A DNA stretch of 64,000 bases, taken from Medicago truncatula. Its lineage: Eukaryota; Streptophyta; Magnoliopsida; Fabales; Fabaceae. The notes beneath the pieces are model-generated. The model did not search any database. It saw only the letters and a list, made by a program, of their open reading frames with translations, and was not told the DNA's origin. Positions 59-63,410 of the stretch are shown here, piece by piece. Both the position numbers and the translations under genes were made by a program. Within the stretch, counting starts at the first letter, position 1. Each line of letters begins with the position of its first letter. The stretch lies in assembly GCF_003473485.1 (NCBI RefSeq), contig NC_053045.1, positions 60,244,494 through 60,308,493 on the forward strand, given 5' to 3'.

Positions 59-584
59 GTGTAAAATAAGTTTTTGGTCCTTTAAAATTTTCAAATTTCA
101 CTCTTAATCCTCTATAAAAATTCTTCAATTTTTGGTCCTAAACATATTTTTCGTCACCACTTTTCGTCATTGCTTTTAAGCAAGGTCACGTATATCTTTC
201 ACGTTTTGTAATTAGTTTTTTCATAAATGTTTAGAATATTATAAGAATTTCTGAAAAAAAAAATATAAGAATTGTTTCCTAAAACATGAATTAAATAATA
301 ATTTTAAGCGGAAAAAACATAAAAATTTATATTTAATTCATTTTTTCTTAAGAAATTCTAAACTTTTGCAAAAGAGAATTATGTAATGTAATAAACATGA
401 ATGAAAAATAAAAATCAATATTTCAAACGAAGCACATGAGTTGGCATAAAAGTAGGGACTAAAAGAGGTGCGGAAAATATTTTGGACCAAAAATTGAAGA
501 ATTTTTTTGGAGGAACTAAAATCAAAATTTAAAAATTTTATAGGGATCAATTTTTTTTTTAAGGGATCAAAAACTTATTTAACC
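59..584. mobile_element. Mutator-type MITE with long terminal inverted repeats
   Basis: The first and last ~90 bases are imperfect inverted complements. The left end reads AAATAAGTTTTTGGTCC and the right end GGGATCAAAAACTTATTT, followed inward on both sides by matching 'ttcaatttttggtcc' arms. TTTAATTAA occurs just outside both ends and fits a 9-bp target duplication, although it is low-complexity sequence. No transposase is visible. The interior is AT-rich and no coding frame is convincing. Confidence 0.6.
240..273 (+). repeat. Possible tiny A-tailed insertion
   Basis: The direct repeat TATAAGAATT (240-249 and 264-273) flanks a 14-base insert, TCTG followed by ten A. It lies inside the MITE at 59-584. 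The repeat is short and AT-rich, so this is the weakest member of the tiny-insertion set. Confidence 0.3.
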
Positions 585-895: not shown

Positions 896-1842
896 AGGTA
901 TGTATTAGATTTAGATTTTAAAGTATTTTAAAAGACTTTTTTGTTTTATAAAAATCTTGTGGTATTCAATCAAGATTTTTAAGGAATGTAAAACATTCTT
1001 GTGGTATTCAATTAGGATTTTCATGATTTTTTAATGAGTCCAATGAAATCCAATGGTATTCAATTGAGATTTTGCATAACTTAAAAATTGTATACCGATA
1101 TTCAAAACTCTACGGATTTTAATGGATTGTTGTGAGTAATGGATTTTGTGAGATTGTTTAATGTAAAATGTACCTACTAACAATCCCACACCTAGCCTTG
1201 AGACTTTTCTGTCTCCCACACATAACCTTGAGATTTGTTTAGTTTTTATATTATTGTTCTAAAAAAATGTTATCTTGTATCCAGTCAAGAAAAAAAAAAT
1301 GGTGTCCACTTTACATACTAAAAACCATCGCCGTCGTTCTCTCAAAAAAAAAAAATCATCGTTGTCGTGTCGAGATCGAATGTACCTTGTTTATGTGAAG
1401 CATTTCATCTTATATTTCACTATTGCAGTTTCATAAGTGTAATTTTTTTAAGTCAATTTGTTTTTCTAATTTATAATAATTATTTGATTTTTAGCATATA
1501 ATTTTTGTTGACAACGTTATGTTATTTTGTTGTTAACCAACAATTATTAGTATTATTTTATCATCAGTCAATTTCATAAAAAAAAATCATTCACTATGCT
1601 AATATTGAATTTTTCTTAAGAATCATACAAACTTTTCAAATCTTTAAAATCTCATAAAATCCTTTGAAATCTTAAAGTTTATGTTACAAATCCATTCAAA
1701 TCTTGATTTGAAATTCCTAATTGTGAAATAAAATCTTTTAAAATCTCAAAAAATCAATACAATCGCACAAAATCTTTTAAAATCTTTAAGATTTTTTTGC
1801 CAAAACAATCGTTCAAAATCTCAATTCAATACACCCCGTAGT
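896..1842. mobile_element. Terminal-inverted-repeat element, family unresolved
   Basis: The left end 'aggtatgtattagattta' pairs with the complement of the right end 'aattcaatacacccc'. The interior repeats variants of 'gtattcaattgagatttt' and its complement near both ends, as subterminal repeats of a non-autonomous DNA transposon do. I could not fix a target duplication. The interior has no coding frame that I recognise. Confidence 0.45.
1325..1368 (+). repeat. Tiny A-tailed insertion with target duplication
   Basis: CCATCGCCGTCGT (1325-1337) and TCATCGTTGTCGT (1356-1368) match at 10 of 13 positions and flank an 18-base insert, TCTCTC plus twelve A. The layout is target repeat, short core, A-run, target repeat. 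It suggests target-primed reverse transcription with almost complete 5' truncation. The insert lies inside the TIR element at 896-1842 and so is younger than it. Confidence 0.5.
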
Positions 1843-5949: not shown

Positions 5950-7398
5950 CTATAATCTTGGGGAGATTGTTCAATAATCCCCTCAAATTGTTTAACCGGT
6001 GGGTTGTAATTCCTCGACTTTTTTGTGTGTAAATTTCTATTGAGTCGTAATTCTCAATCAACTTTTTTCAAAACACTTGGCAATTTGGAAATGTCTATTG
6101 AATAACCTTTTAATGTTCGAAGATTGTTGTTCCCATATCAAAGGGTGTTAGGAAACACCAGAAAAATACCAATATAACTTCATCGACAACAGTTAGCTGT
6201 CGATAGATTTTAACCGACGGTAGTTAACTGCCGATGGAATTCGGAGTTAAAGTTGTTATTTATTTTAGTATTGTTTGGAGTGTAGGCAGCCATCTTCTTA
6301 ATGTTCTAGTCTTCTTGGGCTGAAATTCAGGTTTCCCTTGCCTACAAGTATTTGGGCTCACTTGATAACTATTTATGCAACCCAAAAATATTAGGGATAG
6401 TGACCAAAGACACCCTCTTATTTTGTCTTACTCAATTTTTCGTGCGTCCTATGTAGTTCCGACTATAAAATTTGAAAGGAGAAAAAAATTCATAAAACCC
6501 CTCCAAAAACACGTTTAACGTTTTGAATTTTATAATTCAAACAGAATGTGCAAGAAACTTATAGGACGGGAAAAGTAAGTGTCGTGACCAAAATACTAGT
6601 ACGTTTTCATGGTATAGCCTTGCATATGTACCTTGTAGTATTGTTGCATGGGTGTTGAACTGTTGATGGATACGAGTTAACCTGATTAACTTAATCACTC
6701 GGCTCAACCTAATCACATGCGAACCAATTCGGTTAAATTTGAATTGGCTTGATTTGAGTCACAAGTTTATGATTTTATCAAATTCATAATCCCTAAAACT
6801 TAAATCGTTAAACTTTAACTATGAATTGATTGTGGATATAATTTAAGACTCTTAATTGTTGAATCTATAAGTTTTGAATCTATAAATGTTTTAATTTGAT
6901 TCATGATAGAAAACTAAAACCTATCACTAAGTAAAACTATGATAAACTAGAAGAAACTATGGTTCTAAACTAAAAGAAGAAGAGAATAAAAACTATCTAA
7001 GAGAAATAAAATAAAATTTTCATTCATTTTGTTTGATTGTTTGCTAATAGGACAATACAATGTTTATATAAGTTGATGCATACACATGATAAGATAACTA
7101 TATCAACTTCACAATAACAATAATATCAAATAATTAGTCATAAAACAATACTATCAAACAAACTAATAGAATGTGGTTAAAAGATCTCCTTCTAGAGCAA
7201 ACTAGAAGATTCATTATTTTAGTCTCCATGATCCTATCAATTCAAGTGGTAAAAACTAAAATATGGGAGGGTTTGGCCAACTAGTATCTTAGGACACGAA
7301 TTAACATTTTATTTATTTTCAATTAAACAGTCAAATCCTTCTTTCTCCTATAGATATTGCTTCTTTTCATTCTTTTTTAATGAACCTGGAATTTGTTC
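5950..7398. other. Intergenic, repeat-derived, no gene
   Basis: No coding region is supported. A weak inverted-repeat element may lie at about 6390-6590. Its ends carry 'gtgaccaaa' and complementary 'cttact...cgtcctat' blocks, but its borders are unclear. A small palindromic patch at 6180-6245 has 'cgacaacagttagctgtcg' and 'cgacggtagttaactgccg'. The rest is AT-rich sequence with no feature I can name. Confidence 0.35.
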
Positions 7399-8310
7399 TT
7401 TTTTTTTTTTTGAAATAACATATTCAATTAATAAGCCAAGCACAAAATCCAGGTTCATTAAAAGAGTAAGTGTACATGCAGCCCAACTTACCAATAGGCG
7501 CAAGCTTACCATCATAAGAAGGAAAAAACAATGACAGGAAGCTTAACATAAAAGCCTATGCTGCCTAAAAACCAAATGACAGAAACAGAAACCAAAGAAG
7601 CCGTGGCACTTATTATAGCCAAACCAAAGCCAATCAACAGTGGCCAAACGCCGTCACTTCCGTCTAATGCATTCTCTCGGATTCCAACACCATTCATAGA
7701 AGAGACAAGAAGCTATCATCAATCTACTCAAGGACCCACACCAAGACACCACCTTAATGTCTTCAACCACGTCATCAAAATTCTTGAAAATCCTTGCGTT
7801 TCTTTCCTTCCAAATCATCCAAATAGAGGCAAGCCAAATTAACAAAAACGTTTTCTGAAGCTTCCGAGAGTTCACCTCACCATTCCAACAAGTAAAATGT
7901 AAAAGCAAATTTTGGGGAGTGATAAAATTAATATCTAACCAATTGAGCACCTTACGCCAAATTAACAACGTCACCTCACAATGCAAAAAGAGATGAGACG
8001 TTGTCTCCTCCATATCACCACAAAGAATACAAACACAAGGTTCCCCGGGGGCCAAAACACTCTAGTGCCCAAGGTTAGCCCTTGTCGGAATACGGTCCAT
8101 CAAAGATTGACTAACACCTCCTCCTCTAGGACGCTCAACCCTTCTTGGTGGAGAACACCCTCCTCCAAAACCTTATAAGAGGAACGCACCGTATACTTAT
8201 CACCCTCCTCCGGCAACCAAACCCAACTATCCTATTCTCTACCCAAATTGACTCCTCCAATGAGAGCTAGTAAGTTATCGATAAGATTTCTCTCCCAAGA
8301 ATATAGTGAT
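7399..8310 (-). mobile_element. 5'-truncated L1-type LINE, 3' end with zinc-binding domain and poly-A
   Basis: On the minus strand, the frame from about 8055 to 7654 encodes the zf-RVT domain that follows reverse transcriptase in plant L1 elements. It shows a Cys-rich CVCILCGDMEE stretch, then HLFLHC, then WLASIWMIWKERNARIF. Upstream, near 8150-8240, other frames read VWLPEEGDKYTVRSSYK, the usual segment just before this domain, so frameshifts and stops are present. The minus-strand 3' end closes in TTTC plus about 12 A (poly-T at 7399-7411). Reverse transcriptase and endonuclease are absent. It is a dead, 5'-truncated copy. Confidence 0.8.
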
Positions 8311-11270: not shown

Positions 11271-11337
11271 AATTGATATGAGGCAAACTCATTCTCTCAA
11301 AAAAAATAAAAAAAAAATTGATATGAGGCAAACTCAT
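11271..11337 (+). repeat. Tiny A-tailed insertion with a perfect 22-bp target duplication
   Basis: Positions 11271-11292 and 11316-11337 are identical over 22 bases (core TTGATATGAGGCAAACTCAT). Between them lie 23 bases: TCTCTC, eight A, T, eight A. A perfect 22-bp flanking duplication around an A-tailed insert is the hallmark of LINE-type target-primed integration. Here the insert itself is almost nothing but tail. It sits about 200 bases past the BIG GRAIN-like stop codon and could be in that gene's 3' flank. Confidence 0.65.
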
Positions 11338-16499: not shown

Positions 16500-18430
16500 C
16501 TTCCTTTTTTCCCTCACGTCCCAAGGTAATATTGTCGTGATTTTATAACTCTAAAATTCCTAACTTCTTACTTTTCGTGCATTTGGAAATTGTTTCATCA
16601 ATGAATATGACATGTTCATGTTAGGATATCTCCTCATAGTATAATTCCATGGGCATGAAAAATATGCGGTTCTATCAAATCCCATATTTTGAGTTATTTT
16701 CAAGTATCTATAGCAATACGACAAGTAACAAAAAGATGCCAAGAATTTTCACCATAAGAACCACAACAAATGCAATTTTAAGGACAAAGTGCCTTTTTTT
16801 GTGACAAGCTAGCTTAGCTCTAGTTAGCAAGCAATCTCCGAATGAAATTATTTACCACCAATGGTGCCTCCAAATTCCGGACTAAAGACCAATCACCAAA
16901 TGCATGTAAGCTAGATCTATCAAACAAGTTATTTACGACTTATTTGTTAGCAGATTTGACAGTGAACATACCTCTTGCATCTGACCACCAATGTAGATTA
17001 TCTTCTTTTATTGAGTCTAACAAAGGAGTTGGCAAAACTTTTTCAGCATTCTCGTGAAACATATTGCAGCCTCATCCCAACTTTTGGTGCCTTCCCAAAT
17101 TAGATCATGTACCATGAGATGTGTATATACTAGGAAAGTGAGAGGAGTAATATTACTAAACTATCATTCATATTACGACGAAGTGCATATATTTCTCTAA
17201 GTAAAATTCATATTATTACCAATTCTCACCTCCGCATAAAATATTTGATTTTGAGAACTAAGTCACCAAAGAGTGAGGATTGGTAATAACTTTTCAAGCT
17301 TGCTTAACTAACATAGATAGATTAAAAATAAACTATCAGTCATATTACGACCAAGTGCATACGTTTCTCTAACTAAAATTCATATTATCACCAATTCTCG
17401 CCTGCGCAGAAAATATTTGGCTTTGAGAACTTAAGTCACCAAAGAGCGAGGATTGGCAAAAACTTTTCAAGCTTGCTTGACTAACATAGATAGATTAAAA
17501 ATAAACTATCAGTCATATTACGACGAAGTGCATATGTTTCTCTAACTAAAATTCATATTATTACCAATTCTCGCGTGCGCAGAAAATATTTGGCTTTGAG
17601 AACTTAAGTCACCAAAGAGTGAGGATTGGCAGTAACTTTTCAAGCTTGCTTGACTAACATAGATAGATTAAAAATAAACTATCAGTCTTATTACGACGAA
17701 GTGCATATGTTTCTCTAACTAAAATTCATATTATTACGAATTCTCGCCTGCGCAGAAAATATATGGCTTTGAGAACTTAAGTCACCAAAGAGTGAGGATT
17801 GACAATAACTTTTCAAGCTTGCTTGACTAACATAGATGGATTAAAAATAAACTATTAGTCTTATTACGACGAAGTGCATATGTTTCTCTAACTAAAATTC
17901 ATATTATCACCAATTCTCGCCTGCGCAGAAAATATATGGCTTTGAGAACTTAAGTCACCAAAGAGTGAGGATTGACAATAACTTTTCAAGCTTGCTTGAC
18001 TAACATAGATAGATTAAAAACATATAAATTTCTAAATCTCATACCTCCATATTGCTTCAATATAAAGAGTTTGCCCAATGATAACTAATGAATACCATGG
18101 TTGTTGCCTCAATTTGAACCCCACTAAAAGGAGTTCATCATCTTTTGAGTGTCATCAACAAGAGATTGAGGGATTGGAAAAATGCTCATCATATAAGTTG
18201 AAATTGATTGAACCATAAAATTTATGAGATCTTCTCTACTAGCGCGAGACAAAGCTTTACTCTTCCAAGAAGTTATTTTTTGCCAAACCTTATCCTTGAT
18301 GAAATCGAAGACCGATTTTTTGTTCCTTCCAATCATGGATGACAACCCCAAATACTTTCCGATGCCAAAAGTAATGTTGACATCCAAGACACTAGCAACA
18401 CCATTTTTCAGTTGGTGACGTTCTGACTAA
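16500..18430 (-). mobile_element. L1-type LINE fragment interrupted by its own tandem array
   Basis: Minus strand. 18418 to 18120 reads FGIGKYLGLSSMIGRNKKSV, then WKSKALSRASREDLINFMVQ and QKMMNSF, the segment at the C-terminal edge of plant LINE reverse transcriptase. About 17080 to 16680 reads NCICCGSYGENSWHLFVTC, the Cys/His core of the zf-RVT domain. Between them lies a 173-bp tandem array (17157-18021) whose unit also comes from LINE coding sequence. Several stops and shifts are present. The 5' part (endonuclease and most of the RT) is missing. Borders are approximate and no clear poly-A or target duplication was found. Confidence 0.78.
17157..18021 (-). repeat. Five-copy 173-bp tandem repeat derived from LINE coding sequence
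   Basis: The landmark AAGTGCAT recurs at 17181, 17353, 17526, 17699 and 17872, giving spacings of 172, 173, 173 and 173. Copies 2-5 are nearly identical, and copy 1 is the most diverged (TTTGATTTTGAG instead of TTTGGCTTTGAG, for example). On the minus strand each unit reads FNLSMLVKQA, stop, KVIANPHSLVT, stop, VLKAKYF. This matches the LINE segment between reverse transcriptase and the zinc domain (usual pattern FNLAML.KQGWR....NP.SL....LKAKYFP). The array therefore grew from a piece of the LINE in which it sits. Confidence 0.85.
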
Positions 18431-18839: not shown

Positions 18840-21025
18840 ATGGTTTCGTACATGAACATTCTACTCTACGGCGTCGGAGGCTTAGTCGTCGCCGGCATGG
18901 CATTGCTCGTCGCGTTTCAGGAGAAGCTTGTTTACGTTCCGGTCTTACCAGGTCTCACCAAATCCTACGCTATCACTCCTTCTCGTCTCAGACTCACCTA
19001 TGAAGATATCTGGCTTTCTTCTTCTGATGGTGTTCGTCTTCATGCTTGGTTCATCAAGCTTTTTCCTGATACCAGAGGTTTATTTTCGTTTTCAATTTTC
19101 GTCAATTTTGGTTATTTGAGTTTTCATTTCTATGAATTGTTTAGATCGAAAGTGAATAGGGTATTATATTTTGTGGATTCAATAATTTAAGCACTATCAT
19201 GGTTGAATTGAGGTTTGTTCATTCAAGAGTGTGAAATAGTATGTGTGAGGGGTTCTTTCTATAGTACCTAAATTGAAATTTGAATTGAGTCAAAAAAAAA
19301 TTGAAATTTGAAATTCCAAAAAAAATGTCTTTTTTAGGAACCCAATAATTGAATTGAAAAGAATCAACAATTTTATTGAAAAAACTCTCCTCAAGGGTTT
19401 CCCTAGGCTTCTGTTAATAATTTTGTGGACTAAACTGAGTAATTAAATTAAATTAACGCACATTTGAGGACTAAACTAGTAAACATGATAGACATTCATA
19501 GATGTTTTTGCAATTTTGATAGATTTAGAGACTACAGTGACAACACCAGCCTCACACATTTAAGGACGAAAATGGTTGTTTACTCGAGTAAATATTAGTT
19601 GGTGTTGCTGATTTGCTATGAATATGCACATACTCTTTGAACTCTATAATGTAATTCATGTATGTATACGTGTGCTGTTCTAATGCAGTTCTTCTTTCTT
19701 ATTTTGTATTTGCAGGTCCAACCATTTTGTTTTTCCAAGAAAATGCTGGAAGTATCCTGGTTGTTGTAGATATTACAACGTTAGGGGTTAGGTTGTGATT
19801 GTTATTTCATTTTATCTATCTTTACTTGATCAGGTTCAATTTCTTTTGAAGGCCTTGACTACTAACTTTTAGATATTGCCCATCGCCTAGAAATGGTTCG
19901 TATAATGTTGCAGCAGTTACAATGCAATGTTTTCATGCTTTCTTACAGAGGGTATGTATCTTCCTTGACACCTTAAGCTTTTGATTTTTCATGCATTTGA
20001 ATGAAATCCACATGTCACCTTATGACTGAGTTGGCTTTAAGGCATCCTCATTTGATTTTACAGTTACGGAGCAAGTGAGGGCTCTCCTTCTCAGAAGGGA
20101 ATTACTAAGGATGCTCAGGTATGCTGTTTGATTCATATCCTTGTGTGTTATTGGTCTTTAGACCTCTTTATTGAAATTTCTTCAATTTTATTACCTCATT
20201 GTGCCCAGGCTGCATTGGATCATCTTTCGCAGAGGTCTGATATTGATACATCTAGAATAGTTGTATTTGGACGGTCACTTGGGGGTGCAGTTGGAGCTGT
20301 ACTAACAAGAAATAACCCTGAAAAGGTACCTCTGGTATACTATGTATATTGGTTTTCATGCTGTGCTTGGAGAAAATTAAATTGATAGTTTTTTGAATTT
20401 AAGTTGTCTCCCTGGTTTATAGTATGAAGATATATATTCCTTCAGAATGTCAATACTATATGAATTAATACCGCATGCATTATAGGTAGCTAGGTTCTTA
20501 AGTGAAGGCATATAGCAAGGCTGTATAATGTAGCTCCAAATTTCTAGTTTTCTAAGGTTTCTCTTGTCGTAAATAGATAACTCAATTAATGATTCTAAAC
20601 ATGATGAGAGAAAAGAATTTTGGACTTGTTGAATCAATCTTATTTTAGATTATTGAGTGTGCCAATTTTATGGCTCTCCCCCTGGTACACATGCCTTAAA
20701 AAATATGTTCCTATTAGGATTGTAGATTTGTTTGTGTAGCTTTGATTTTAAAGCAAATCCACGCTATCAATCAATTCCTTGAATAATAGCATGGAAAGAA
20801 ATTTACAAGCTTTTGTTCATTGCTCTTAAGTGTTGGAAAATTATATAGGAATCCCTTCCTTGAGCAAATTTTCTTTGTTATGTTATACTTATATCGTGAA
20901 GCATTTTACTTACTAGCATTATTCTCTTGGGCTTCCATATAGCATAAATAAGATTCTTTGCACAGGTTCTAAAGGGCCAATTTTGTATGCTGGTTTTGGA
21001 GAAGTATCAGCATGGTTTTCTATAC

Positions 21026-23850: not shown

Positions 23851-23949
23851 TGAATATATGTATCAACTCATGAACCAAGTCTAGAACTTCAGAAAATATG
23901 GCTACATATCACAGTTGAATCCAACCAAGCAGCTTCTTCAAACACTAAA

Positions 23950-24040
23950 TCTTTTTTGCTAGTAGCCGGGGTTCGAACCACAGACCTTGCATATATTATG
24001 CATTGTCCAAACCAACTGAGCTATGCTCACGAGGATTTCA
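23950..24040 (-). mobile_element. tRNA-derived SINE fragment
   Basis: On the minus strand, CATAGCTCAGTTGG (A-box-like) is followed about 40 bases later by GGTTCGAACCCCGG (B-box-like), then AGCAAAAAAG. The spacing and order fit a pol III promoter. No acceptor-stem fold of a real tRNA is seen, so I call it a SINE and not a tRNA gene. Confidence 0.55.
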
Positions 24041-24111
24041 AACACTACATCTCATAAGGATAGACCCTTTTCTTGATAAAAAAGAAAAGAAAAAGAACCT
24101 ACATTCACTAG

Positions 24112-30866: not shown

Positions 30867-31835
30867 GGTCCCGTTTGGATTGGCTTATTTTGAACTTATG
30901 TGGGTTTATCTATTTCTATAAGTCTTTTTAAAGGTGTTTGGGTAAATAAATAAAAATAGCTTATCATAGTTTCATAAGCTGCTTATGCCATATTTTAATA
31001 AGCCTAAATTTTCAGCTTACCATCCGGCTTAACAAGAAGCTTATGAATTTATGTAACCTCCTTCGATTCTCTGGATACACTTTTTCAAAACATATTTTTA
31101 TTTTTTATTTTTGTTTTTAGAAAAAAACATATATTTTAATTATAATGTTAGTTATATTTGGTTGTGCATGAGTAACAAAATTGTTATATACTTATCTTAC
31201 TAAAGTAACACACGTAACTAAGATTTTTTTTTAAGGATGATTTTTATTATTTTTTTGTTACGTAACAAAATGAAACTGAATAAAAAAAACAAACTTAACT
31301 TGTCTTTTTTTTTTTGTAACAAACTGTACATTAATATCTATATATATGGTAAGTTTACAATCATAATTTCTCAAGTATATATTTATATTATTATACTTTT
31401 TTTTAAAAGAAAGCTTATCATATATTATTATACTTATGTATAATGATGTTTAGACTATTTATTTACACCTCGAATGTTAATTTTGTCTTATATGAATATT
31501 GATATTTTTTTAAGGACGAATATTGATTATACTATATATATAATTATAATTAATATATTATAATATTGTTTTTTACATCTTGATTAATTTTATAAAAAAA
31601 ATCTTGATAATTGTGGTTCGATTCTTTGATTTTTTTGTTAAATTAAAAATATTTAAAATTTCGATAATTGCTTATATAATGTCACATCCAAACACTTCAA
31701 TTTATGTAAGTATTTTCTAGTGTACATATCCAAACATAAATAGCTTATCAAGTATAAGAGCTTATGATGTAAGCTCTAATGTTATAAGACCTAATGCTAT
31801 AAGCATCTATATAAGTTGTTTATCCAAACGGGGCC
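30867..31835. mobile_element. Tourist-like (PIF/Harbinger-type) element
   Basis: The left end GGTCCCGTTTGGAT and right end ATCCAAACGGGGCC are inverted complements, with TAT on both outer sides (a 3-bp duplication fits this superfamily). Matching 'gcttat...aagct' motifs recur inside both ends, as in the shorter relative at 61596-61835. The interior is very AT-rich and has no transposase. A smaller repeat pair at 31494-31527 lies inside. Confidence 0.65.
31494..31527 (-). repeat. Tiny A-tailed insertion (minus strand)
   Basis: GAATATTGAT (31494-31503 and 31518-31527) flanks 14 bases that read GTCCTTAAAAAAAT on the minus strand. The repeat is short but perfect. The core TCCTTA differs from the TCTC or TTGTC cores elsewhere. 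Confidence 0.35.
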
Positions 31836-51167: not shown

Positions 51168-51210
51168 AACAACAATTTGATTTTGTCAAAAAAGGAACAA
51201 CGATTTGATT
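51168..51210 (+). repeat. Tiny A-tailed insertion with a 15-bp target duplication
   Basis: AACAACAATTTGATT (51168-51182) and AACAACGATTTGATT (51196-51210) match at 14 of 15 positions and flank 13 bases: TTGTC, six A, GG. Confidence 0.5.
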
Positions 51211-53723
51211 ATTTTATTATTAAATAAATGATTTAGAATATAAAATACATTTTTATTAAGAAAAACTTTGACTTGAACGTTGTAATGTTTGCAAGTACAC
51301 CACTTCCTCTAGAGAATATGAAAATTATTGATTGAAAGACGGCGGTTCAAAGACATCTCCATCTTTCAGACCACATATCTCAAGTTCGCATGGATCAAGA
51401 GTCATACTCTACACGACAAACCAAAGTACACTTTCGTGAATTGAAGCTCATGTCCAATTTTGTTAATTAAGTTCATGTAGGCACAAATACATGGAAATTG
51501 AAGATGCACGGGTTAAATTTACGTTAATGAATTCATTTTAAGCAGGTGTATGTGAATTCAATTCATTTTTAATGGTTGACAAATTTAAAAGAAATCCACG
51601 TTGAAACATATTTTGTCAATGAAAAATATATTTTCAATGCACGTTTGGTGAATTATCTAGTGCATACTTCGTGTTATGGTTGGTTTTTAGATATATAAGT
51701 TATACTTTCTCTCCATCTTTTCTTTCTTTTCATCATTCATGAAAAAAGGGTGATTTTGGGTTTCGTATATCAGGTTCTCCTTTCATATTTTTGTTGTGAT
51801 TTTCGGTTTCGATGTAGCATGTTTTATTTGTCGTCTTTGCGTGACGATATTTGATTTCCCATCTTAGTACGGTATTTGTTTGTTTCAAACTGACAAATTA
51901 ACCTCGATCAATTGTATACTAAATCAATGACTAGGTCACCAACATTGTAGATCCAAAGATATGTGTATTTTGATCATTTTATATTACAATATTTATAGAC
52001 ATCTTGTTGTTTATGTTATTAACTTTGATGCTGTGAGCTTATTCACAAACTCGCTATTTTTTCATTTTTAGTTATGTTGGGTGTGTGTTTGTTTATGATC
52101 CACTGTACTAGTTTGAACAAGGGATGGACAAAAATGTTGTGTCCGACTGAAGCCGGACAATCCAGCCCACTGAAAATCGAATCGGGTGGATTATTCAAAT
52201 GGGTGGGTGGGTCTCATGAGTTAATTTTTTTGGATTGAGGTGGATAGGAATGGGTTGGTTTAGTTCCAATTTAGTGGCCCGTCGGTACCCTAAACTAACC
52301 GCCCTAAACGTGCATATATTTACAATTATATATATATTAGTGTTAATTTTACATATAGAGCCCAAACCTCGCTTAGCTCATACTAAAAGAAACCAAATTT
52401 AGTCCAAGCCTAACCCTGATAAACAAAAGGGTTAACAACCTAATCCTAGATTCTTTCGGTTCTCTCTAGTATATCGTTTCTGATTCTCCCCCTCCTTATT
52501 TGTTTCCTTCATTAATAGCTTAACCTAAACCGCCATCACAACTCACAATCTCAATTCTCAACCTAGATCAATTTCCTTCATTAACTTGCTACTCTTCTAT
52601 CTCAAATTCTTAATTGACGGTCGTAGTTGCAATATGTTATATTTTTTATCCTCTCTTCCCTTCCTATAGTAGTGTGGAGCTCTTTCTCAATCACTTATTT
52701 TATCAGTGATTCGTGTTTTTTTTTATCTCATCATACTATTCGCCATTCTCCATCCAATCTAATTATTTTCCATGATTATCTTGCTTTTTTTGTGTTATTG
52801 AATCACTGGACCATTAAATTTCTATGTATAACCATACAATCCTTCACTACGACGTTCTATCTTGCTAATTTGTTGATTTTTTTAGAGAATGTTAATCTGA
52901 CTCAACTCATCACACCCATCCGACAAACCAAATAAATTGAAACTGATCAATCCAACGATACCAACGGACGGAGATAGGTGACTATCCTTGCCCATGGTAA
53001 GCTTAATATTGGAATTTTTCACCCGAAAATCGACTGAATATTGTTTCCATTCCTACAACAAAAAAAATAATATTTGATTTGCCTAAATCTCGGCGTGCAA
53101 TTTCAATAAATACATGGTGATAACCAACATTCACTTACTCTATCTGAAAAAGTAATTTTATAACGACAAACACCAACGTGTATCGTGAGTTTTATATGCT
53201 GTGATTTTATTTTATTTTCACATTACAACAATATCATTGTGCGTGCTCTTTCAAAAAAATAAATATCATTGCGCGTTTGAATAACGATTTTTTTAGGTAA
53301 AATAACTTGACATGGTAATTCAAATTATTCTATGTAAATGTTTGGATGATAATCTTTTTCTAAAGATAACTAATTAGTTATTCTAAACATTTTGTTCTAC
53401 TAAAATTGCACTGTGGGGGTGTCTCCCTCTCACTATATTACTGTCAACGTTCATTAAAGAAATACCTTGAAAAGAAAAGTTAGTTAAAAGTTTATTTAAT
53501 CAAGGTTAAAATATTAAAATAAAAATGTTTTTAGGGGAAAATAGAAGTTGTTACTGATACTCGTTTCAGGTTCATTTCTACCTAATTAACTATTACAATA
53601 ATTTTATTTCATAAAAAAAAACTATCCAATTAATTCTAAAATATAAACTGAATTATCAACTTTTGGTCAAATATATGAGAAAAGAAGTTGTTAGCGATAC
53701 GCTCGTTTTGAATCCATTTCGTA
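51211..53723. other. Intergenic, no gene
   Basis: No supported coding region. At 52125-52330 GC-richer text with 'gggtgggtgggt' and 'ccgactgaagccgg' looks like part of a dispersed repeat, similar in style to 55590-55740. The plus frame at 52627-52935 has no recognisable domain. Confidence 0.35.
53230..53276 (+). repeat. Tiny A-tailed insertion with a 15-bp target duplication
   Basis: AATATCATTGTGCGT (53230-53244) and AATATCATTGCGCGT (53262-53276) match at 14 of 15 positions and flank 17 bases: GCTCTTTC, seven A, TA. Confidence 0.5.
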
Positions 53724-54008
53724 CTCTTTTTGTTTTAAAATTAGTGTTGTTTTAGCCAAAAAAATATATATATTTTAAAATGAATGTCACTTTCAATTTT
53801 CAACGCAATAATAATTTTTTTTTGAATTATACCCTTCAATTAATACTAAATACACTAGTTCCAAAGTATTATTTTTTCTTTAATGAAAAACAAACCAATA
53901 TTTGATTAAGATAATTTGGTAAAATAACATCTCTAGTTCTTTTAACTAATGCATTTCTTAATATACGCGTAAAAGCATAAAATGACATTCATTTTAAAAC
54001 GGAGGGAA
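53724..54008. mobile_element. Stowaway-like MITE
   Basis: The left end CTCTTTTTGTTTTAAAATTAG and right end ATTTTAAAACGGAGGGAA pair imperfectly, with TA outside both ends. About 285 bases with no coding capacity. Confidence 0.7.
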
Positions 54009-54384
54009 TACTTTTCAGAGAACAAGTTTTATAAAGTTTTATAAAGATTTTTATTAATCATTATGATTGATAAAATATAGATTTTTCAAATAATGATCAA
54101 TAAAATAAATTTTGACGACAACTTCGTCTTTTTTTTAATAAATCAAGATATTTTTGTGATAAATTGTAGAGAGTGGGCTTACGTCCCTCAAAGAAAAACT
54201 AGAAAATTTAATTAGGATTAGACAATCTAATGAGAATTACTTTTCTCCATTTTGTTTTTACTCATTTACGTGCTACTTGAGTGAACTTATGTTGAAAAAT
54301 ACACATATGCGTGTTAACTCACATTCGTCTTTTTTAGGGAAATGAACAATTCTAAATGGGAGAAGAGCAACTCTCTAATCCAAT
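54009..54384. other. AT-rich spacer
   Basis: Nothing recognised apart from the target duplication AATCCAAT at 54377-54384, which belongs to the next element. Confidence 0.4.
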
Positions 54385-55035
54385 CAATGTTTTAAAGCCC
54401 AGATCGATTCGGTTGGTCGGATCGGTCAGACTGGGAACCGGAGGGTGCAGCGGTTCGGGCAGGCTACAGGACCAGATATGCAATTAGCCGCTGAAATCCG
54501 GTGTGACCCAGCCGGGTCAGTGGGCAGACCGTTGACCCAGTTTAACCCGCTCTAATTAGTCGACTATGTCTAGAACTTACTTCAGTTTGTAATTCTATTA
54601 TTTTTTGTTGAATATGTTCATAACTTACTTGGGTTTGTAAGTCTGTTATATTTTGATTTCCAACAATGTTTAGAACATACTATGTTTTAACTTTTAAAGA
54701 TGGAATCTGAATTAGAACTTATTTGTGAGATTTTTTATGCAGTACTATTGTTTAATGTATGAGTTAATTTGAATTTGGATTGGAATTAGCTTGAAATTGA
54801 ATTGTGTTGTAGTTAAGAAATTAACTTGCAGCTGTTAATATAAATTTTTTAATGTACGAACTTTAAATAGAAAAAAATATGACAAGATTTTTTTTATCAA
54901 AATTTCGTTCATAATGTAAATTTTGGTCATAAATATTTGTATATAGACCAGATCAATAGTCATGTGATCTGACCAATGAACTAGTAACCCAGTGCCTTGA
55001 CCGTGTCGATCACCGGTCCGGGTTTTAAAACATTG
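54385..55035. mobile_element. Non-autonomous hAT element with a perfect 8-bp target duplication
   Basis: 651 bases. The ends CAATGTTTTAAAG and GGTTTTAAAACATTG are inverted complements, and AATCCAAT lies outside both (54377-54384 and 55036-55043). GC-rich subterminal blocks carry repeated CCGG, GGTC and GACC motifs, in contrast to the AT-rich middle. No transposase frame. Confidence 0.85.
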
Positions 55036-55043
55036 AATCCAAT

Positions 55044-55534
55044 ACATCAGCAAGCAGATGTGTCAAATCGGCTGTCTGATCCAGTCCGATCAGACCCGGG
55101 AGGACCAACAACACAAATGGGTCAGTTCAGCCCATTTACAATTGAGCCACTCATTCTAGAGTCTGGTCTAAACCATGTGGGCCATGACTCAATCCGACCC
55201 ACTTTAGTTTTCTTATTATTTTATTTATTCACTCTTTTTTATGTATTTTGATATATTAGTTACTCACATCTATCTTTTGTTTTTGTAAAAAAAAATATTT
55301 TTTTGCTAAAATGTGATTGGATTGACATTTATGTGTAATTAATTTTTACATTAACATTAAATATTAATTAAACTCTTGATATATTACTTCAAATTAATAT
55401 TTTATAAACTTCAGAATTTTAAAACTTTTAGCTAGATTTATCTATTTTAAGTACGTTTATTCATTTAAATTTTTTTAATAATAAATTTTAAATTAGTTGA
55501 TTTTTTTTTAAATATAATTTATTTTCACAAAAAT
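55044..55534. other. Repeat-derived spacer
   Basis: 55055-55205 has GC-richer 'gatccagtccgatcagacccgg' type text, probably part of another old repeat related in style to the hAT ends. The rest is AT-rich with no gene. Confidence 0.3.
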
Positions 55535-55581
55535 ATAATTGAAGTATTGATCTTGTCAAAAAAAATAATTGAAGTATTGAT
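55535..55581 (+). repeat. Tiny A-tailed insertion with a perfect 17-bp target duplication
   Basis: ATAATTGAAGTATTGAT (55535-55551 and 55565-55581) flanks 13 bases, CTTGTC plus seven A. This is the cleanest of the TTGTC-type copies. Confidence 0.6.
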
Positions 55582-63360: not shown

Positions 63361-63410
63361 AAAAATGAAGATAAAATATTTTTTGAGAGGAAAAATGAAG
63401 ATAAAATATT
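63361..63410 (-). repeat. Tiny A-tailed insertion (minus strand) with a perfect 20-bp target duplication
   Basis: Positions 63361-63380 and 63391-63410 are identical over 20 bases (core ATGAAGATAAAATATT) and flank just ten bases, which read CCTCTCAAAA on the minus strand. The core CTCTC plus A-run matches the copies at 1325-1368 and 11271-11337. Confidence 0.6.

Follow-up and report, generated by a model that had tools for sequence, protein, structure and literature searches.

LINE copies that were made by target-primed reverse transcription (TPRT) and truncated at their 5′ end carry a 3′ poly(A), are flanked by a target-site duplication (TSD) of about 15 bp, share their 3′ end with a longer element and correspond to a single-copy empty site. 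These features recur in the insertions described here. The difference lies in the length copied, which is just 5–9 nt with few copies of about 12–60 nt, and in the proportions, as ultra-short copies of one family (core TCCTTC) seem more numerous than long ones. Human L1 insertions identified by outgroup comparison have a TSD peak at 14–16 bp, and microhomology and extra nucleotides at their 5′ junctions were studied in the same work (PMC2912911). The TSD size is alike, whereas an ultra-short class would be missing from that screen because only insertions of 50–10,000 bp were taken. A conserved 3′ stem-loop is described for the plant L1 lineage, and its recognition is discussed for grass SINEs and for a single lineage of monocot LINEs (Ohshima review, PMC3747384). 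Some LINE families here likewise have a small stem near the A-tail, but it is short and not general, and the passages of PMC3747384 on the stem-loop do not treat ultra-short insertions. A literature search at title and abstract level, with subscription journals outside it, found no paper on such insertions, which is weak support for novelty. The new part is the sharp size and the high number; the class is real and TPRT is its best supported mechanism.

Nine such sites had been proposed from the letters of the window, i.e., the whole 64-kb stretch of DNA that was analysed, and direct reading found all nine present in the sequence (Table 1). A common layout, in which a TSD is followed by a short core with TC at its end, then an A-run and the second TSD, holds for seven of them (51168, 53230, 55535, 1325, 11271, 19271 and 63361) but not for 31494 and 240, which have no final C and 10-bp repeats, and which individually may be chance repeats. 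The sequence-only reading had reduced the cores to a single formula. Several cores are found instead, and two of the nine sites lack the core. The LINE fragment of the window had also been said to end in the same last bases as the cores, yet its end TTATTTC has only 2–4 final bases in common with the other cores of the window. It was rejected as the origin of the common cores after comparison of core and LINE 3′ ends.

Table 1. Ultra-short insertions, weaker candidates and LINE fragment in the 64-kb window.
Feature	Position	Strand	TSD	Core	A-tail	Remarks
Ultra-short insertion	51168..51210	+	AACAACAATTTGATT	TTGTC	A6GG	second TSD AACAACGATTTGATT
Ultra-short insertion	53230..53276	+	AATATCATTGTGCGT	GCTCTTTC	A7TA	second TSD with 1 mismatch
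Ultra-short insertion	55535..55581	+	(A)TAATTGAAGTATTGAT	CTTGTC	A8	second TSD identical; absent from 20/20 fetched paralogs
Older ultra-short insertion	1325..1368	+	decayed, 3 differences in 13	TCTCTC	A12	read by eye, under detector threshold
Ultra-short insertion	11271..11337	+	22 bp, no mismatch	TCTCTC	A8TA10	
Ultra-short insertion	19271..19312	+	low complexity	TTGAGTC	A8-9	
Ultra-short insertion	63361..63410	-	18-20 bp, no mismatch	CCTCTC	A6	
Weaker candidate	31494..31527	-	10 bp	GTCCTT	A7	
Weak candidate	240..273	+	10 bp	TCTG	A10	
LINE fragment	7399..8310	-				3′ end GTTATTTC-A13 on minus strand; relatives at other genome loci

Candidates with cores of at most 10 nt were collected by an A-run-anchored detector in the window together with another 29 loci (164 kb); reversed (uncomplemented) sequence and 10 dinucleotide shuffles served as controls. 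For runs of at least five A the detector gave 24 candidates, and the reversed control 9; the corresponding figures were 18 and 8 for at least six A, and 15 and 2 for at least seven. Each shuffle gave 0 or 1 candidate and all gave 0 at the last threshold. When 14 loci were added (209,672 bp in total; at least six A, core of 3–12 nt) there were 21 candidates and 6 in the mirror control, with the A-tail abutting the second repeat and the polarity fixed. The base preceding the A-run is C in 12 of the 21 candidates versus one of the 6 mirror cases. One candidate, L004:473, is a false positive whose homologous copy carries the identical stretch ungapped. The excess of 15 per 210 kb corresponds, as a rough figure, to the order of 10^4 copies per genome, for loci picked around LINE fragments, with some false candidates included and old copies such as the one at 1325 missed. 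The TSDs of 57 candidates, some of them false, are 9–25 bp long with a median of 14 (16 counting leading A's); LINE insertions made by TPRT have TSDs of roughly 7–20 bp. At the first nick, where TT/AAAA would be the endonuclease site of a LINE, the preceding base is T or C in 44 of the 57 and the following one A in 45, a context that is partly definitional since leading A's are absorbed into the TSD. By itself the locus sample gives a modest excess; it is the targeted sites with their mismatched-pair control that are decisive.

The genome of 430 Mb, with eight large contigs, was scanned for the cores. TCCTTC followed by A9 occurs 2298 times versus 41 for the reversed pattern; the permuted core CTTTCC with A9 is found 172 times and its reverse 55 times. 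TTGTC followed by A10 gives 2886 occurrences against 263 reversed, and C followed by A12 gives 34,044 against 26,820 for A12 followed by C. TSDs were searched at sites of contig C1: the first 40 places listed for TCCTTC+A9; 20 of the first 25 for TTGTC+A10 (the other five overlapped loci already sampled, among them L086, a match of the C+A12 set); and, for C+A12, 40 of the first 43 (two omitted places lie within a sampled stretch and one is L032, a TCCTTC match). A TSD was called at a repeat score of at least 9 with a core of 3–12 nt, and chance was estimated by pairing left and right flanks of different sites. TSDs with a short core were found at 26 of 40 TCCTTC sites (4 of 1560 mismatched pairs), at 13 of 20 TTGTC sites (0 of 380) and at 6 of 40 C+A12 sites (0 of 1560). 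The tiny A-tailed insertions noted in the window are real and extend beyond it.

The cores are short and narrowly distributed. Their lengths at the 26 TCCTTC sites are 5 (nine sites), 6 (eight), 7 (six), 8, 10 and 11 nt (one each), counted with a pattern blind to cores below 5 nt. The 13 TTGTC sites have cores of 5 (two), 6 (six), 7 (three), 8 and 9 nt (one each), and the six C+A12 sites of 6 (four), 7 and 10 nt (one each). With cores allowed up to 120 nt, the TCCTTC sites yielded no additional copy of 12–120 nt save an ambiguous register at L051, and the C+A12 sites yielded three tRNA-like copies of 75–89 nt, a single 29-nt copy and a few weak candidates; two doubtful copies of 17 and 107 nt appeared at the TTGTC sites when longer cores were allowed there. 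The tRNA-like copies were set apart by eye as a different class. A continuous spread of 5′ truncation lengths was not seen: cores of 12–60 nt are few, with scattered longer ones outside the TCCTTC set. Nor do the inserts, a few nucleotides plus A's, have the Pol III promoter boxes of a SINE. Among the sites without a short-core TSD (14 TCCTTC and 7 TTGTC), TTGTC sites L147 and L157 are long homologous ends, and TCCTTC sites L041 and L059 are copies of one repeat. Among 27 insertions whose core ends in CTTC (one of them non-TCCTTC), the repeats are perfect in 23 and differ at 6 positions in 379 bp, so these insertions look young, as read with a detector that favours young copies.

Paralogs were searched genome-wide for two insertions, and a single-copy empty site was found in both cases. 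The insertion at 55535 sits inside a dispersed repeat, and all 20 fetched paralogs have a single target copy; at an identity of 69–82% and with an A-rich junction, they do not place the insert boundary to the exact base. At L025:3214-3259 the order is TSD, TCCTTC, A8 and TSD, while L165, the one spanning paralog among those listed, has a single ATAACTAACCATGATTT, a clean difference of 30 bp.

The two commonest cores equal the ends of longer families. LINE 3′ ends were gathered beside zf-RVT domains (PF13966) and along the LINE family of the window, and many finish with TC, TTC, ATC, ACC or TT ahead of the A-tail. A search with AATGAAN{4,34}TCCTTCA7 gave 176 matches versus 1 in the reversed control; 15 of them, chosen by eye among 100 of the 176 matches listed, share AATGAAATGCTATAAGCAT(C/G/A)TTTCCTTC or near variants. 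These long ends, taken with about 450 nt upstream, all match LINE locus L176 (15/15) and nearly all L182 (14/15), the long end L187 matching over 81 nt only; L176 and L182 are loci taken downstream of zf-RVT domains. A stop codon lies 13–15 nt ahead of the A-tail in all 15, the frame upstream of it being open for just 5–22 codons in L187, L188, L194 and L199. The frame of L198, the only one tested for this family, matches Pfam RVT_3 (3.3e-18). By the L176 and L182 matches, the RVT_3 frame and the position of the stop, TCCTTC is the 3′ terminus of a LINE family whose 3′ UTR is unusually short and which we classify as L1-type. Two other sources were considered for this core. A search for TCCTTC directly after the LINE tail signature TTGTGCNNGG had 0 matches, and a CTTC-repeat source, TTCCTTCCTTC, had 53 against 0 in the control and accounts for a minor form only.

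For TTGTC, the pattern AATGAAN{4,34}TTGTCA8 gave 830 rows, some places being double-counted, versus 28 in the control. All five fetched copies of the long family are homologous over about 330–470 nt, and no Pfam match was found in the single frame tested. We call this second family LINE-like. In 7 of 13 insertions TTGTC is preceded by C, A or G, at a position where the long family has T. In the comparison with collected LINE and SINE ends, 2 of the 28 cores of an unbiased list matched over their full length, CTTGTTC (LINE L006) and ATCTACC (SINE-like L090). Adding the TCCTTC and TTGTC families brings the cores with a source to 7 of 28. The remaining 21 have no match among the ends collected.

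The ultra-short insertions are very probably LINE retrotransposition events by TPRT that ended within about ten nucleotides. A LINE endonuclease would nick the target DNA, and the T-rich 3′ end at the nick would prime on the poly(A) tail of a LINE (or co-opted) RNA. The reverse transcriptase would copy the A-tail and only 5–9 nt more before stopping, and the short cDNA would be joined to the opposite side, giving a normal target duplication of about 12–18 bp. The proposal that TPRT was halted almost at once is supported by the TSDs, the A-tail, the single-copy empty sites and the identity of cores with longer families. Several facts speak against it: most cores of the unbiased list are sourceless, the base 5′ of TTGTC differs from the long family in 7 of 13 copies, cores of 12–60 nt are few, unlike in random 5′ truncation, the endonuclease shows only a weak site preference (Y before A), and the TTGTC family has no Pfam match in the frame tested. 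An early stop of synthesis is likely; it may come from intrinsic early release, hairpin arrest or run-off on trimmed RNA.

Hairpin arrest concerns the stop alone and is a tentative explanation: a stem-loop upstream of the tail, perhaps the recognition element of the enzyme, would block synthesis so that the core is the single-stranded tail. The TCCTTC LINEs carry a 4-bp stem, A[T/G/A]GC-TATAA-GC[A/C/T]T, at a distance of 9–11 nt from the A-tail. Its second pair varies among the copies between T-A, G-C and A-T; one partner belongs to the penultimate sense codon, and its mate lies past the stop codon. All four pairs are kept in 12 of 16 sequences of the family (4 of 7 distinct ones), but at least one is broken in the remaining 4 (3 of 7). 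In the 9-nt form, cores of 5–7 nt end 2–4 nt short of the stem. Stems end 8–9 nt from the tail in L118, L123, L174 and L180 (z of −1.7, −3.6, −4.6 and −4.3), yet the mean over 35 ends is z = −0.6 against mononucleotide shuffles and many ends have no such stem. Stems of the TTGTC family are inconsistent, while its core length resembles that of the TCCTTC family.

Run-off on trimmed templates, again a variant on the stop only, appears unlikely. Here 5′–3′ decay would leave RNA shielded by reverse transcriptase or tail proteins, the whole remnant of 15–25 nt would be copied, and the 5–9 nt would be a footprint. A narrow and similar core length in two families with differing 3′ ends agrees with this, as does the lack of an inverse relation between core and A-run length (r = 0.23, 29 insertions with cores ending CTTC); the additional 5′ bases of TTGTC copies would suit run-off addition. 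Against it, trimmed RNA is here a supposition. Two further ideas on the stop were rejected. A limit on total cDNA length disagrees with the same r value, and a terminating ribosome, suggested by the stop codon 13–15 nt from the tail, is not general because the TTGTC family shows no domain there in the frame tested; in addition, TPRT is generally regarded as a nuclear process.

Break repair or replication slippage, in which small tandem duplications with filler would be followed by A-run growth, is very improbable as the origin of the class. Filler between tandem copies occurs in break repair. Small tandem duplications at DNA breaks are known, but filler would not repeat one hexamer thousands of times with an A-run 3′ of it adjoining the second repeat, and L165 holds one clean copy. 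Chance direct repeats flanking A-runs in AT-rich DNA explain some single matches such as L004:473, in line with the 6 mirror cases per 210 kb, and may stand for single weak sites, but for the class they are refuted by the genome-wide counts of both cores and the TSDs at their sampled sites.

Under TPRT ended early, the footprints of the TCCTTC core would amount to some 1,500 ultra-short copies (a share of 26/40 among the 2298 places with A9 tails) versus a few tens of long ends, the latter undercounted from 15 among 100 of the 176 matches listed with a pattern that demands exact AATGAA; for TTGTC, 13 ultra-short and 2 long copies are found among 20 sites. The chances seem even that some LINE families in this plant lose most of their integration attempts within the first ten nucleotides, that these footprints are one of the main ways in which A-mononucleotide runs arise and mark endonuclease cuts whatever the fate of the copy, and that a fixed step of the enzyme (an initiation-to-elongation switch or its footprint) underlies the constant 5–9 nt. 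If true, many A-runs and indels of roughly 30 bp would stem from retrotransposition (6 of 40 C+A12 runs), and thousands of target sites would become available to measure LINE cutting. The sharp stop would raise a testable question on TPRT, namely what follows directly once the enzyme has moved past the poly(A) tail. Plant LINE activity would moreover be undercounted, because repeat finders are blind to a 6-nt element.

In the LINE family that ends in TCCTTC (copies L185-L199), the stop codon of the reading frame lies 13-15 nt upstream of the poly(A) tail, and the frame contains an RVT_3 domain in the one copy tested. The 3′ UTR is nearly missing in this family. At four other LINE 3′ ends (L118, L123, L174 and L180) a stem ends 8-9 nt upstream of the A-tail; its sequence differs among the four, and three of the stems have z-scores of -3.6 to -4.6 versus mononucleotide shuffles.

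Two loci elsewhere in the genome, L041 and L059, are not ultra-short insertions; they are copies of a dispersed repeat whose flanks are similar on both sides and in which ...ACTTTGA..AGTCCTTC-A is internal. Several matches of AATGAAN{4,34}TCCTTCA7, among the 100 of 176 listed, are perhaps this same repeat. Other repeats found within the window are compiled below; L099 and L105 hold copies that resemble its tRNA-like one.

Other repeats within the window
Feature	Position	Strand	Remarks
tRNA-like SINE or retropseudogene copy, ~79 nt	23937-24051	minus	A6 tail, 15-bp TSD
Inverted repeat AATGAACCTGGA..TTTGTTC / ..TCCAGGTTCATT	7370-7470		spans 3′ end of LINE fragment; by eye
173-bp unit, five in tandem	17157-18020		95% matches

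The base 5′ of TTGTC is C (five cases), A or G in 7 of the 13 TTGTC-type insertions (L145-L163), unlike in the long TTGTC family, where T directly precedes this core. The seven insertions may carry added junction bases or the end of a different source family.
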